DNA of 24,960 nucleotides from a virus: positions 1 to 24,960 of IMG/VR virus record IMGVR_UViG_3300032242_000813, one strand, 5' to 3'. The notes under the pieces are model-generated. The model was not told the DNA's origin and searched no databases. It saw nothing but the letters and a program-made list of their open reading frames with translations. This document shows, in pieces, positions 1,179 to 6,251 of the stretch (within the stretch, counting starts at the first letter, position 1; each line of letters begins with the position of its first letter). The position numbers and the translations under genes are program-made.

Positions 1179-1340
1179 TTAGTTCTCCAACTGGCGATGT
1201 GCCAGCATCAGTTCGTCGACCTCTGCTTCGGTCAGCAGTCTTTCACGCTGGACGCAGTGGTAATACTCCACTGTTTCACGAGCCACACGGTAGAAGTGGG
1301 TTTCGATATCTTCTTCGCGTCCGTTTTGATTGTAGTACAT
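1179..1340 (-). CDS. small hypothetical protein, 53 aa
   Basis: A longer reading starting at 1391 is possible, but the ATG at 1340 is preferred. It has AAGGAG seven bases upstream and begins one base after the stop codon of the DUF4326 gene, whereas the longer form would run into that gene. The product starts MYYNQNGREED and is charged and rich in Tyr, Arg and Glu (for example TEAEVDELMLAHRQLEN at the C-terminus, probably an amphipathic helix). No recognised family. It lies between the DUF4326 gene and the 116-aa gene in a tight leftward operon. Confidence 0.65.
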   Translation of the reverse strand: MYYNQNGREEDIETHFYRVARETVEYYHCVQRERLLTEAEVDELMLAHRQLEN

Positions 1341-1341
1341 C

Positions 1342-1602
1342 TTAGCACTCCTTCTCTGCGAGTTCTTTAAGCACGTCGCCGTGACATGCAAGCGGTGCGC
1401 AATAGCACACCAATGTCTTGTCCTTCAAGCTCTTGACGTTGTTCTTAACAAACGTATCGTTCAACGCCCAAGCCCTGTACTTGCGTATCACCTCTGCCCT
1501 GTCTCCATCCCGTCCAATTACAAACGGATTGCCCCAAGGCCCCGGCCTACCAATATACACATCGCCCTGCTGTTTGTCCTTGATGTGCTTTACGTTCGTC
1601 AT
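1342..1602 (-). CDS. DUF4326-family protein, 86 aa
   Basis: The sequence matches the DUF4326 pattern as I know it: VYIGRP..WGNPF near residues 15-27, a charged DGDR..VI.KYRAW block (32-45), and the closing CYCAP..CHGDVLKELA block (66-81) with C66, C68, C73 and H74, a possible metal or catalytic cluster. These small proteins recur in phages and plasmids; their biochemical function is not established to my knowledge. An upstream in-frame ATG at 1620 exists, but the ATG at 1602 has AGGAG five bases upstream and fits the family's usual N-terminus. It is the first gene of the four-gene leftward cluster, and its leader borders the structured-RNA region. Confidence 0.8.
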   Translation of the reverse strand: MTNVKHIKDKQQGDVYIGRPGPWGNPFVIGRDGDRAEVIRKYRAWALNDTFVKNNVKSLKDKTLVCYCAPLACHGDVLKELAEKEC

Positions 1603-1639
1603 GTCTTCTCCTATTCGCATTCACACGAATGCACCTATG

Positions 1640-2016
1640 AGTATGGCACGAGCGAAGAGCTTGCTCAAGGGTATGCCCGCGTAGCGGGCCGATCAAGCGG
1701 TTTACCCTAGGGACCGCCAACCATACCTACGAGTGCCGAAGGACACGAGCAATGACCGTAGTAAACCGATTGTCGCCCTTGACTAGGACGTGAGCCGCTG
1801 TTGATCTATGGCGAACGCCAAGCTCTGGCAGCGAGTGGCTCTAGCCCGAAGGGCGTTATCAAAGGCATGAGTGAAGCCCAAGCGGCTTGAGCGTAGTTCC
1901 TATCGCAGTGTTTGGACTAGCGACTGCTTCATCCGTCGCGGGTGAAGTCCAACCTTTGAGCCTGACACCTGACATGGTTTCACAAGTCAGGCGAACTATA
2001 ATGCAGTTGCAGTTCG
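1640..2016 (+). ncRNA. candidate large structured RNA, about 350-375 nt, class not recognised
   Basis: There is no convincing reading frame here, but consecutive nested helices fill the interval. Domain 1: 1645-1649/1733-1737 encloses 1670-1675/1722-1727, which holds hairpins 1676-1680/1684-1688 and 1697-1703/1711-1717. Domain 2: 1774-1780/1849-1855 encloses 1792-1796/1837-1841, 1797-1800/1829-1832 and hairpin 1809-1812/1817-1820. Domain 3: 1859-1865/1953-1959 encloses hairpins 1874-1878/1884-1888 and 1891-1896/1900-1906 and a pseudoknot at 1912-1952. Domain 4: 1960-1966/1986-1992. A stem at 1991-1997/2011-2017 follows. Domains 2, 3 and 4 abut with 0-3 bases between. Several helices lengthen through U-G pairs only on the top strand (1644-1738, 1669-1728, 1702-1712, 1703-1711, 1801-1828, 1932-1942), which favours rightward transcription. 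No RNase P, tmRNA, tRNA or group I core motif was seen. Boundaries and promoter are not established. Confidence 0.55.
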
Positions 2017-2145
2017 CTAGGCGAACCAACTCCTAACAACGAAACAAATGATTGTTACGATGCCAAGGATATATATGGCTGGTATGGCGAGGACAGCAAG
2101 GGTTACGATGCTTCCCCAAAAGCTGGACTTCGGCATGTCAAACAT
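2017..2145 (-). CDS. small membrane protein, 42 aa
   Basis: Translation begins MFDMPKSSFWGS and continues with an almost uninterrupted hydrophobic stretch (about residues 10-37, rich in Ile, Val, Leu and Ala, with a Pro at 22 that may hinge it) before the tail RSWFA. This predicts one long or two short membrane helices. The start codon overlaps the end of the upstream 39-aa gene by 8 bases, and GAGG lies three bases before it. Tiny membrane proteins of this kind occur in phage early and lysis regions; neither role can be assigned here, since no endolysin or spanin is adjacent. The stop codon touches the last helix of the structured-RNA region. Confidence 0.6.
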   Translation of the reverse strand: MFDMPKSSFWGSIVTLAVLAIPAIYILGIVTIICFVVRSWFA

Positions 2146-2257
2146 TTTCCTCATCCTCCAAGATCATCATCAGCCCCACCAGCCACGAAAGCTCGCGGTT
2201 GTCGAGGCGAAGGATACGTTCGTTGGTCCACTGTTCAAGCAGGAAGGCTGTGTCCAT
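2138..2257 (-). CDS. small acidic protein, 39 aa
   Basis: The frame MDTAFLLEQWTNERILRLDN...ILEDEENV is short but has a well placed AAAGGAG six bases before the ATG at 2257, and it overlaps the next gene by 8 bases, which is the usual arrangement for coupled phage genes. The product looks like two short helices with an acidic tail. No family recognised. It is the first leftward gene after the divergent control region. A rightward open frame over the same bases (2048-2326) has no ribosome binding site and is judged a shadow. Confidence 0.55.
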   Translation of the reverse strand: MDTAFLLEQWTNERILRLDNRELSWLVGLMMILEDEENV

Positions 2258-2284
2258 CTCAAGCTCCTTTCAACGGATGAAGAT

Positions 2285-2352
2285 GAGGGACTGGTTGTTT
2301 CTTCAGTACCTATATCTATTGGATGAAGAAACACCTATGGTTGTCATCCCTC
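2285..2352. repeat. long imperfect inverted repeat in the leader of the leftward operon
   Basis: A perfect 9-bp pair, GTTTCTTCA (2297-2305) with TGAAGAAAC (2324-2332), and an outer 6-bp pair, GAGGGA (2285-2290) with TCCCTC (2347-2352), form a hairpin with an 18-base loop and a large asymmetric internal loop. It lies about 30 bases upstream of the leftward start at 2257, so it would be part of that transcript's 5' leader. A role in RNA stability or translation control is inferred. Confidence 0.4.
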
Positions 2353-2411
2353 TCCCCATCCTATCTCATTGAATTGTATCGTGGGGTAAAGCATACAAAT
2401 AAAGATCCCCC

Positions 2412-2432
2412 ATAGGATGCTGTTAATCCTAT
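2412..2432. repeat. 7-bp inverted repeat in the divergent region
   Basis: ATAGGAT (2412-2418) and ATCCTAT (2426-2432) are perfectly complementary around a 7-base spacer, and a CCCCGGGG palindrome follows at 2438-2445. Read leftward, the stem is followed by a G-run and then a T-rich stretch, so it could be an attenuator, but the T-tract is not contiguous with the stem. It may equally be an operator between the divergent promoters. Confidence 0.35.
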
Positions 2433-2453
2433 AGGCACCCCGGGGGGAAAACT

Positions 2454-2482
2454 CTTATCTGCCGAGCAGGGCAGGAAGTCAA
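2454..2482 (-). promoter_or_regulatory. candidate leftward sigma70 promoter
   Basis: On the lower strand, TTGACT (2482-2477) is followed after 17 bases by GATAAG (2459-2454), a good -35 and a 4-of-6 -10. It points toward the 39-aa gene and would give a leader of roughly 190 bases containing the two inverted repeats. It is the best leftward candidate I found in this interval, but the -10 is weak. Confidence 0.35.
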
Positions 2483-2536
2483 TCAAACAAAATCTTACAA
2501 AAAACGAGTACTTTTACATCCATACAAATATTCTCC

Positions 2537-2565
2537 TTGACTTTCTCTTAGATTTATGGTAGAAT
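2537..2565 (+). promoter_or_regulatory. rightward sigma70-type promoter
   Basis: TTGACT (2537-2542), a 17-base spacer and TAGAAT (2560-2565) match the sigma70 consensus at 10 of 12 positions. The element shares CTTGACTTTC with the second promoter 273 bases downstream. The predicted start site is about 2572, giving a leader of nearly 300 bases with several hairpins before the first convincing gene at 2865. Confidence 0.65.
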
Positions 2566-2609
2566 TCAACTTATGAAGCGGACAGGTATATGAAGAACAA
2601 CAGATATAA

Positions 2610-2640
2610 AGAACTATATAAATAATAAGAACTATATAAA
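2610..2640. repeat. 13-bp direct repeat, AT-rich
   Basis: AGAACTATATAAA occurs at 2610-2622 and again at 2628-2640, and a related AAAGAACT recurs at 2653-2660. Directly repeated AT-rich motifs between a promoter and its first gene could be binding sites or part of an AT-rich unwinding element. No function is demonstrated. Confidence 0.5.
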
Positions 2641-2655
2641 GATCTATTAGACAAA

Positions 2656-2739
2656 GAACTTAAGAATAAGTTCAAAGTCTTTATGAAATAAAGACAACTA
2701 AACAAATGCTCAGGTCAAGAAAGACAAAACCCTTGACCT
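2656..2739. repeat. three consecutive inverted repeats in the rightward leader
   Basis: Three perfect stems follow one another: GAACTTA/TAAGTTC (2656-2662/2667-2673, 4-base loop), GTCTTTA/TAAAGAC (2677-2683/2689-2695, 5-base loop) and AGGTCAAG/CTTGACCT (2712-2719/2732-2739, 12-base loop). A further TTATAA pair lies at 2785-2790/2797-2802. The third stem overlaps a TTGACC that resembles a -35 box. They could be operators, leader RNA hairpins or origin iterons; the sequence does not decide. Confidence 0.5.
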
Positions 2740-2813
2740 TCGCAACAGTTATCTTACTACTATATGTTCTTTATAATCAAATACTTATAACTGTTCTTAT
2801 AAAAAGTACTTGA
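2706..2813 (+). CDS. possible small membrane peptide, 35 aa
   Basis: The frame MLRSRKTKPLTFATVILLL... has a basic N-terminus followed by a hydrophobic stretch (about residues 11-32), the profile of a small inner-membrane peptide. Against it: no ribosome binding site is visible upstream of 2706, the region is AT-rich so hydrophobic codons arise easily by chance, and the frame contains an inverted repeat and ends inside the -35 box of the strong promoter. Listed at low confidence because the topology is suggestive. Confidence 0.2.
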   Translation: MLRSRKTKPLTFATVILLLYVLYNQILITVLIKST

Positions 2814-2838
2814 CTTTCCTTAAAAACTAGTGTATAAT
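2810..2838 (+). promoter_or_regulatory. strong rightward sigma70 promoter for the late/structural genes
   Basis: TTGACT (2810-2815), a 17-base spacer and a perfect TATAAT (2833-2838) match the sigma70 consensus at 11 of 12 positions. The expected start site near 2845 leaves a short leader with GGAG (2854-2857) and the ATG at 2865. This is the best promoter in the window and probably drives the packaging and structural operon, at least until phage-specific control takes over. Confidence 0.8.
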
Positions 2839-2864
2839 CCTGTTCTCTTATATGGAGAATCCCT

Positions 2865-3110
2865 ATGCTTCTTGCTTCCTTGACTCTGTGGTTTGCTATT
2901 GTTATCTTCCCCGATGGGGATGTCAAAACTAGGACCGACAAGGACAAAGTCCAACCGTTCTCCACCAAACAGGAGTGTCTGGATGTCCAGAAGGGCGACC
3001 GAAAGGTTGCCAAGAGGGATCACCCAGAGATGACCGAAGGAAAGGATTACGTCTTTACCTGCGTTCAAGATGAAAAGATGGAAAAGGAAGTAATCAACCA
3101 CAGTGTCTAA
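2865..3110 (+). CDS. small protein with N-terminal signal or membrane segment, 81 aa
   Basis: The first 15 residues (MLLASLTLWFAIVIF) are hydrophobic and resemble an uncleaved anchor or short signal peptide. The remainder is highly charged, Lys/Asp/Glu-rich, with two cysteines (in ECLD and FTCV) that could form a disulfide outside the cytoplasm. The start is supported by GGAG seven bases upstream and by the strong promoter ending at 2838. It is the first gene of the rightward operon and overlaps the TerS gene by 8 bases. No family is recognised; an envelope-localised role such as superinfection exclusion is possible but purely inferred. Confidence 0.7.
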   Translation: MLLASLTLWFAIVIFPDGDVKTRTDKDKVQPFSTKQECLDVQKGDRKVAKRDHPEMTEGKDYVFTCVQDEKMEKEVINHSV

Positions 3111-3831
3111 ACATATAGCTCGGAAGAAGTGGGATGAGAAAACCCGACTGGAACTTGTTCAGTCATACATTCTCACTGGATCGTTGGCTGTCGCAGCAGG
3201 TATTTGTAAAGTTCCTCTGCCCACCGCTAAGGTCTGGAAACAATCCCAGTGGTTCCGAGATCTTGAACTCGAACTCCGGCAAGGAGCAAAACTCAAACTC
3301 AGTTCCAAGCTCAACAAAATCGTAGAGAGTTCTATGACCCAGTTGGCAGACAGGATTGAGAACGGCGATTACATCTGGGACAAAGTGGCGAAGGAATACA
3401 AGCGTAAACCTATCACAGCTGAAGTCGCACAGAAGATAACCGCCCAACTAATAGACCGCACTCTCCAAGTAGAGAAAGCGGCACAAACCGGTACTGTAAC
3501 AGACGAAGGGCTTGACGCCCGGCTTGAGAAGCTCCGCATGGAAATGAAGGAGTTTGCCAAGCGACCGTCTCTTAAACCTATTAATGAAAGTGAGATTATT
3601 GATGTCATTCCTCAGCTCGTTGAAGAGTCTCTTTCAATCCCTGAACGACAAGTTCTCCAAGCTCGCCAAGAAGAGCGCCCCATCCGTATCGCCGGTAGTC
3701 CCCCCGTCCGCGACGACGCCGGTCCTCCCGCCTACCGTTACCCCAACCGCACCAGCGGTGCTGGCACCCGTCCCGACTCCGATCCTTCCTCCCTCCCCGC
3801 CGACTCCAGTCTCCGTGTCACCCTCGGTTAG
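3103..3831 (+). CDS. terminase small subunit (TerS), 242 aa
   Basis: Residues about 11-50 (starting DEKTRLELVQSYILTGSLAV) look like the helix-turn-helix of small terminases (Terminase_2/phBC6A51 type), followed by a long helical segment (55-160) suited to ring oligomerisation. TerS recognises the packaging site and regulates TerL. The start is GTG at 3103, inside the end of the previous gene; AAGGAAG lies rather far upstream, so coupled translation is likely. The last 76 codons share their bases with the next gene in the +1 frame, and the final 50 residues are Pro/Arg/Ser-rich with no domain character, as expected when the other frame is the selected one. The terminase assignment rests on the HTH, the size and the position two genes upstream of TerL's HNH neighbour. 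Confidence 0.7.
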   Translation: MSKHIARKKWDEKTRLELVQSYILTGSLAVAAGICKVPLPTAKVWKQSQWFRDLELELRQGAKLKLSSKLNKIVESSMTQLADRIENGDYIWDKVAKEYKRKPITAEVAQKITAQLIDRTLQVEKAAQTGTVTDEGLDARLEKLRMEMKEFAKRPSLKPINESEIIDVIPQLVEESLSIPERQVLQARQEERPIRIAGSPPVRDDAGPPAYRYPNRTSGAGTRPDSDPSSLPADSSLRVTLG

Positions 3832-4194: not shown

Positions 4195-4503
4195 ATGCCC
4201 AGTTCTCCGGGCTACAAAAGAGACTATGCACATGAAGACGCAATCCGAGACAAAAAGCCGGGGGAAGTCCATAAGCGCGTCCTCCGCAATCAGGCTCGAC
4301 ACGCTGCTCTCGAAACTGGGCGTGTCCACAAAGGGGACCACAAGCAAGTCGACCACATCCGCCCGCTCTCCAAAGGCGGTTCCAATCAAGCGTCGAACCA
4401 AAGGGTCGTAAGCGCACATCTCAACGAATCATATCCCCGGGGTCATCACGGGGAACTACTCCGGCAAAACGCCGCTCTACGAAAGGCACTACATCATGGC
4501 TGA
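4195..4503 (+). CDS. HNH-motif endonuclease-like protein, 102 aa
   Basis: The core VDHIRPLSKGGSN (52-64) followed by N68 and H75 gives the beta-beta-alpha-metal HNH pattern (D53, H54, N68, H75); the N-terminal part is basic and helical. No zinc-binding CxxC pairs are seen. HNH proteins beside terminase genes are widespread in tailed phages, and some are required for terminase-mediated cleavage and packaging, so a packaging accessory nuclease is more likely than a homing enzyme. It starts 2 bases after the previous stop with AGGG upstream and overlaps the next gene by 8 bases. Its base composition is like that of its neighbours, which argues against recent insertion. Confidence 0.75.
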   Translation: MPSSPGYKRDYAHEDAIRDKKPGEVHKRVLRNQARHAALETGRVHKGDHKQVDHIRPLSKGGSNQASNQRVVSAHLNESYPRGHHGELLRQNAALRKALHHG

Positions 4504-4751: not shown

Positions 4752-6251
4752 ATGACTCCTGAAATAGTTGAAGGTGTAGTAAAAGCTTTCCTGATTCGGG
4801 GCTTTGATAATCCCTCCGGTATACCCGAGTGTCATCGGGAATGGTGGGACATGGTTTGTACGAAGCACAAGTTCGTAGCACTAGCAGCACCTAGAGGCCA
4901 CGCCAAGAGTACGGCAATTACGCATTCCTACGTGATTAGCAACTTGGTGTTTCGAGAGTGTAAGTTCGTCCTGATAGTAGCCGATACCGAAACTCAAGCC
5001 TCTATGTTCCTTGAAGATATTAAGAAGGAACTAAGCCACAACGAAGATCTGATGAAGACCTTCGGCATTAAAGGGTTCATCAAGGATTCCGTCACCGACT
5101 TCATCATGGAGTTCCACGACGGTACACAGTTCCGCGTAATGGCTAAAGGCGCAGGCCAGTCCATGCGAGGAGTCAAGTGGGATAACAAACGTCCTGACTT
5201 GATTATGTGCGATGACCTTGAGAACGAAGAGATGGTACTGAATAAAGAACGGAGAAGTAACTTCAGACGTTGGTTCTCCGGTACTCTGATTCCCGCCCTT
5301 AGCAAGGATGGGATTATACGTGTTGTGGGCACTATCCTTCATACGGATAGTCAACTCAACCGCCTCATGCCTCGACTAAACCGTAAAGATCGCCCGTGTC
5401 TTGTGACGGATCTTAAGGAAGTAGCTAATCCAAAAGATGTGTGGTTTTCCGCACGATATAGGGCGCATGACAAGCGGATGGAAGTAGCTCTCTGGCCTGA
5501 GTACAAGCCCATCAGTTGGTTGATGGAGCAACGGCAAGAGAAGTTGGACCAAGGTCTTGCAGATCTGTGGGCACAGGAGATGTTGAACGTACCGTTCGAC
5601 GAAGCCAACGCCCCGTTCAAGATCAAGGATTTTCACCCAATGGCTGAACACGATTGGGATCAGAACATGAACTACTACATTAGTTGTGACTTTGCAACTA
5701 GTGATAAACAGAAGTCCGACTACACAGCTTTTTTGGTTTCAGGGATCTCGTCCGATGGCACCATTAACGTAGTGAAGGCCATAAAGGACCGCCTAGAATC
5801 TCCTGAAATTCTCGAAACGTTGAAGATGTTGGTCCAAAAGTACGATCCTAGAATGGTCTTTGTAGAAGCAGGCCAGATTTGGAATACGTTGGAACCTCTT
5901 GTTACCAACGAAATGTACAAGACGGGAGATTTCTACCTCATAGAAAAACTTCCCTCAATCACAGACAAACGTTCGAGAAGTGCCAGTATCCGGGCACGGA
6001 TGAGGGCAGGAGCAGTCAAGTTTGACACTACTGCCGACTGGTACCCAGATTTCTTAGAAGAGTGTTTGAGGTTCACAGGAACCGGTAGTACGCACGATGA
6101 CCAAGTAGACACCCTCTCACTGCTTGGGCTTGCTTTAAACAAATTCGTAGATGCTCCTACTAGAGAAGAAGATCTGGAAGAGCAGTACGAAGACGAGAAG
6201 AGAGAATCAGGAATGTACGAGATAGGGAGATCAGAGATTGGCGGATACTAA
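4752..6251 (+). CDS. terminase large subunit (TerL), 499 aa
   Basis: This is the packaging motor ATPase and headful or cos nuclease. Walker A is PRGHAKST (47-54), Walker B PDLIMCDD (148-155) with a likely catalytic E157, and the coupling motif is VVGTILH (191-197). The C-terminal RNase H-like nuclease shows D313 in SCDFATSD, E372 in VFVEAG, and the closing HDDQVDTLSLLGLAL segment (448-462) with D449/D450. Length is normal for the family. An in-frame TAG directly precedes the ATG at 4752, so the start cannot lie further upstream, yet no purine-rich ribosome binding site is present: the preceding bases are pyrimidine-rich and part of a hairpin. The 3' end overlaps the next gene by 14 bases. Confidence 0.95.
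   Translation: MTPEIVEGVVKAFLIRGFDNPSGIPECHREWWDMVCTKHKFVALAAPRGHAKSTAITHSYVISNLVFRECKFVLIVADTETQASMFLEDIKKELSHNEDLMKTFGIKGFIKDSVTDFIMEFHDGTQFRVMAKGAGQSMRGVKWDNKRPDLIMCDDLENEEMVLNKERRSNFRRWFSGTLIPALSKDGIIRVVGTILHTDSQLNRLMPRLNRKDRPCLVTDLKEVANPKDVWFSARYRAHDKRMEVALWPEYKPISWLMEQRQEKLDQGLADLWAQEMLNVPFDEANAPFKIKDFHPMAEHDWDQNMNYYISCDFATSDKQKSDYTAFLVSGISSDGTINVVKAIKDRLESPEILETLKMLVQKYDPRMVFVEAGQIWNTLEPLVTNEMYKTGDFYLIEKLPSITDKRSRSASIRARMRAGAVKFDTTADWYPDFLEECLRFTGTGSTHDDQVDTLSLLGLALNKFVDAPTREEDLEEQYEDEKRESGMYEIGRSEIGGY

Follow-up and report, generated by a model that had tools for sequence, protein, structure and literature searches.

A hairpin-bearing noncoding spacer in the leftward operon of a phage genome, a candidate structured RNA

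Gene order and the gene-free spacer

IMGVR_UViG_3300032242_000813 is a complete IMG/VR virus record, and the window analysed here is the whole of its 24,960 nt. The rightward genes encode a small-terminase-like protein (3103; so labelled from its position and a weak DNA-binding match), the terminase large subunit (4752), the portal (6936), the major capsid protein (11819) and an endonuclease VII (12721). A small HNH-endonuclease-like ORF lies between the terminase subunits (4195-4503); its Pfam matches are weak and below cut-off, and it is conserved in many relatives. The leftward genes at 43-1602 encode a 259-aa protein of unknown family, two small proteins and a DUF4326 protein. No relative of the leftward gene at 43-822 was found among phage records. 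The DUF4326 gene (1342-1602, minus strand; Pfam PF14216, E 1.2e-24) is preceded by AGGAG.

According to the curated gene list, only two gene-free gaps longer than 66 nt are present in the 25-kb window. The larger one, of 607 nt (2258-2864), is the divergent promoter region. The other one, of 414 nt (1603-2016), is the spacer studied here, and contains no ORF with a ribosome-binding site. The genes of the leftward operon otherwise nearly abut or overlap. Upstream of the spacer on the minus strand are positioned a small predicted membrane protein (MFDMPKSSFWGSIVTLAVLAIPAIYILGIVTIICFVVRSWFA; 2017-2154), with GGAGG and GAGGAAA upstream of its ORF, and a 39-aa small leftward ORF (2138-2257) with AAAGGAG upstream. 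As both of these small leftward ORFs have ribosome-binding-site-like sequences, the spacer lies inside the leftward operon on the strand of its neighbours (minus). It is an intra-operon stretch and does not separate unrelated genes as a free intergenic region would.

The original prediction had described the interval as devoid of any credible gene, and this holds for 1613-2016, in which the longest minus-strand frame is of 56 aa with a TTG start. The open frames of the spacer range from 38 to 56 aa. On reading, no ribosome-binding site was found for them, whereas such sites are clear upstream of the neighbouring small ORFs. Translated comparison with relatives (tblastx) revealed no similarity. 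The CTAG tetramer occurs four times in the 377 nt of 1640-2016 (1707, 1783, 1841 and 1917) and 48 times in the whole window.

The divergent region contains the most structured stretch of the window (2570-2810), with a z score of -5.4 on the plus strand and -4.5 on the minus strand. In it, a long stem encloses three perfect hairpins, and the whole is situated between two tandem sigma-70-like promoters (2537-2565 and 2810-2838). A block of this stretch, TATTAGACA...AAGTTC, recurs in the relatives L089, L107 and L168, and its hairpin is apparently not conserved. An intrinsic-terminator-like hairpin followed by T-rich sequence (2435-2409, minus strand) is present at the head of the leftward operon and is the only one in 1300-3200. 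A 15-nt direct repeat, ACAAC(G/T)AAACAAATG, is found at the edge of the spacer (2036-2050) and in the AT-rich junction (2694-2708).

Stems, stability and strand

Four tightly abutting helical domains had been proposed in 1640-2016. The stems listed for them exist (1665-1671/1776-1782, 1675-1680/1684-1689, 1698-1705/1761-1768, 1926-1935/1939-1948 and 1960-1966/1986-1992), but the four-domain layout shifts with the chosen ends. A hairpin-like domain at 1665-1782 can form on either strand. It comprises the outer stem 1665-1671/1776-1782, a side hairpin at 1675-1689 and the inner stem 1698-1705/1761-1768, with pair probabilities of 0.50-1.0 on both strands, and folding of 1660-1785 gave z scores of -2.14 (plus) and -2.67 (minus). 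The second hairpin domain (1786-1847, either strand) is formed by 1792-1800/1829-1841 and 1809-1812/1817-1820, and for 1786-1855 the z scores were -1.25 (plus) and -1.62 (minus). Next to it, two domains compete. On the minus strand, a multibranched domain (1859-1959) is closed by 1859-1866/1952-1959 and carries hairpins at 1876-1892, 1902-1924 and 1927-1947; its pair probabilities are 0.80-0.94 on this strand, while the closing stem has only 0.01 on the plus strand. On the plus strand, 1893-1899/1993-1999 encloses 1903-1923, 1926-1948 and 1960-1992 (domain 1893-1999), with pair probabilities of 0.74-0.93 on plus and 0.01 for the outer stem on minus.

Two perfect 6-bp hairpins, possible on either strand, are located at the two ends of the spacer. 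GCATTC-acac-GAATGC (1617-1632) is immediately upstream of the DUF4326 ribosome-binding site, and GTTCGC-tag-GCGAAC (2012-2026) is at the stop of the small membrane-protein ORF that precedes the spacer. In total, three perfect hairpins have arms of 6 bp or longer, against 0.52 expected, and three were reached in 12 of 1000 shuffles. At least three such hairpins were also present in 3 of 58 genome tiles.

The stability of the complete interval is modest. The z score of 1640-2016 was -2.29 (plus) and -1.35 (minus) in one shuffle run and -2.53 and -1.51, respectively, in another, while that of 1600-2060 was -2.55 (plus) and -1.66 (minus). Genome tiles of equal length, mostly coding, gave a mean z of -1.2 on the plus strand and -0.9 on the minus strand, and 8 of the 52 tiles (4 of 26 per strand) reached -2.3 or lower. 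Compared with shuffled sequence, the spacer folds slightly better, but the difference is modest and is matched by these tiles. The structural case for the spacer is weak and its overall stability marginal.

A consistent plus-strand orientation had been derived from at least six U-G extensions of helices. Six G-U pairs are indeed present in the likely helices of the plus strand, but the minus strand has 14. Several better-defined stems, for example 1859-1866/1952-1959 and 1876-1882/1886-1892, are formed on the minus strand and not on the plus strand. With three different choices of ends, the plus-minus energy difference did not leave the range of the shuffles (16/80, 54/80 and 32/80), and which strand came out as the more stable depended on the ends. 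Orientation from G-U pairs was therefore rejected, as the minus strand gains more of these extensions and the energies of the two strands differ no more than in shuffles. When G-U pairs were forbidden, z became stronger on both strands (-3.1 and -2.6), which indicates that the signal comes largely from Watson-Crick complementarity and is to that extent strand-neutral. Base composition (A.24, C.26, G.29 and T.21 on the plus strand) leans weakly to plus; the genomic context favours minus, as does the number of G-U extensions.

Homologue searches and the junction of related phages

The spacer found no match by blastn in 50,697 phage records and 72,556 plasmids. Relatives were collected from IMG/VR through their terminase, portal, flanking-gene and DUF4326 proteins, along with one genome scan, and the closest portal has 64% identity. 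The spacer was absent from all fetched relatives by blastn, nhmmer and tblastx. Two exact 16-mer pattern scans of IMG/VR gave only unrelated matches, mostly coding. Three domains, two of the minus strand and one of the plus strand, were turned into single-sequence covariance models. From 1.3 Mb of relatives these recovered only the window itself, besides one match inside a portal gene (E 0.085), and searches of 26 whole records yielded no hit beyond chance level. As each model is built from one sequence, this negative outcome carries little weight. No second copy of the spacer was found in the contig or in any collection searched. Among the DUF4326 genes of other viruses, none of 80 has a gap of at least 300 nt upstream, and on this ground a standard or cis-regulatory leader of DUF4326 genes was rejected as an explanation of the spacer.

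Known RNA classes were searched by Rfam and ARAGORN. Rfam gave no match at gathering score in the window and nothing relevant at E up to 10 in 1300-2900, and ARAGORN found no tRNA or tmRNA in the window. The earlier observation that motifs of RNase P, tmRNA, tRNA and group I introns are lacking agrees with these searches, and group II introns were likewise not matched.

The corresponding junction of the relatives is also poor in genes. Sequence upstream of the small terminase was present in 23 relatives, and with a simple ORF caller (a stretch without an ORF of 60 aa) 21 of them showed an ORF-free stretch of at least 300 nt, often of 0.7-1.1 kb. One part of it consists of AT-rich repeats beside the rightward promoter, a sequence common to the relatives and to 2784-2838 of the window. 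The other part is GC-richer and is strongly folded in some relatives. In L133, the ORF-free region 1290-1720 (plus strand) has a z score of -7.05 over 100 shuffles and a minimum free energy of -176 kcal/mol on the plus strand against -141 on the minus strand. It matches no Rfam family, either at gathering score or at E up to 5, and nothing similar was found among phage records. In L170, a chain of hairpins (5200-5640) separates the small terminase from the rightward promoter region; folded as 5090-5640, it gave a z of about -5 on either strand, and it has no match in the phage collection. Structured RNAs probably occur at the leftward/rightward junction of this lineage, and the spacer flagged in the window has a far weaker structural signal than the L133 and L170 regions.

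Other features were also noticed near this junction. The relatives L089 (6912-7069), L103 (2027-2098) and L113 (3090-3160) possess tRNA genes there. Fur-box-like palindromes (ATGAGAATNATTCTCAT) are present in the divergent region of L002, L004, L014, L019, L093, L120 and L170 and were not seen in the window on reading. A G-tract motif, AGGGGG(T)GGGGGGAAAA, is found in the junction of L004, L092, L093, L101, L103, L120, L151 and L162, and the window has CCCCGGGGGGAAAA at 2437-2452. This motif is possibly a packaging, replication or regulatory site.

Interpretation and comparison with known RNAs

A hairpin-bearing noncoding interval exists at this locus, and a structured RNA is a candidate for what it encodes. 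Tentatively, we favour the reading that the spacer is an intercistronic, noncoding part of the leftward polycistronic mRNA (minus strand, 2016 to 1603), specific to this lineage and moderately structured. It would be transcribed with the operon, between the small membrane-protein gene and the DUF4326 gene, and its RNA would fold into about three hairpin or multibranch domains under selection. Such a fold may block ribosome read-through and shield or mark a processing point. The membrane-protein ORF would thereby be uncoupled in translation or stability from DUF4326 and the downstream genes, and the two halves of the operon could be expressed at different levels. Alternatively, the spacer may be released by processing as a small RNA. 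The size of the gap in a packed operon and the same-strand flanking genes with ribosome-binding sites argue for the intercistronic RNA, along with the minus-strand helices and G-U pairs, a fold slightly beyond shuffles, the excess of hairpins and the ORF-free stretches of 21 of the 23 relatives. On the other side, the minus-strand z is only -1.4 to -1.7 and coding tiles fold equally well, no homologue was found, none of the 80 DUF4326 genes has such a gap, and the plus-strand A/G excess, slight as it is, leans the other way.

An unselected origin is almost as likely as this intercistronic RNA. The interval would then be an ordinary noncoding spacer or a decayed gene remnant, with stems arising by chance at 55% G+C. 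The range of z among coding tiles (8/52 at -2.3 or lower), the strand difference inside that of shuffles and the lack of conservation anywhere searched are all consistent with it. However, 414 nt of unused DNA is rarely kept in phage operons and the rest of this operon has almost none, and the perfect hairpins are in mild excess over shuffles.

A free-standing rightward (plus-strand) structured RNA, as put forward in the original prediction, is rather unlikely. The plus-strand z is slightly better than the minus-strand one, and the composition of the plus strand (G>C, A>T) resembles that of the plus-stranded candidate of L133. But the strand asymmetry is indistinguishable from shuffles, the G-U extensions are fewer than on the minus strand, neither a sigma-70-like promoter just upstream nor a plus-strand terminator was found, and such an RNA would be antisense to the operon.

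We consider it unlikely that the inverted repeats act in double- or single-stranded DNA, whether as an operator cluster, as a site of replication or packaging, or as a small non-autonomous insertion with a hairpin at each end. Such a DNA-level element is suggested by Watson-Crick pairs that either strand can form, by the improvement of z when G-U is forbidden, by the terminal hairpins at 1617-1632 and 2012-2026 and by the adjoining divergent, AT-rich, repeat-bearing junction. Against it, no direct repeats were found within the interval, a second copy is lacking in the contig and in the collections searched, and the interval lies inside the operon and not at the junction. Very short hidden protein genes, such as MSGVRLKGWTSPATDEAVASPNTAIGTTLKPLGLHSCL on the minus strand, are highly improbable: open frames of 38-56 aa exist and the operon includes ORFs of 39-45 aa, but the frames of the spacer have neither a ribosome-binding site nor translated similarity.

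If real as an RNA, the spacer would be an orphan phage RNA without described relatives. The original prediction had suggested a divergent GOLLD or ROOL member or a new class. GOLLD and ROOL are large RNAs of unknown function that phages and prophages encode, frequently close to tRNA islands; their folds are elaborate, multibranched in ROOL, and backed by covariation, and many GOLLD members exceed 800 nt (PMC12286853). The spacer, by comparison, is of 414 nt, well below the typical GOLLD size, and has no tRNA in the window. It likewise lacks the tRNA island of ROOL, whose fold is extensive and supported by covariation. The Rfam covariance-model search matched no family, GOLLD and ROOL included, even at E up to 10, and the suggested membership is not supported; the spacer should be filed under neither class. 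It is quite doubtful that large structured RNAs near the junction of this lineage form an undescribed class or set to which the spacer belongs as a divergent member, and L133 1290-1720 and L170 5200-5640 as stronger ones. Like the spacer, these two regions are noncoding and multi-hairpin and belong to a leftward/rightward gene junction in the same phage lineage. They differ from it in having no sequence similarity to it, far stronger folding and a position adjoining the rightward genes, whereas the spacer is inside the leftward operon. The wider value of the spacer is as a pointer to the gene-free junction regions of the relatives, including the strongly folded, clearly stranded and Rfam-unmatched candidate of L133. 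The L133 and L170 regions merit follow-up more than the flagged spacer, and L133 is the stronger lead.
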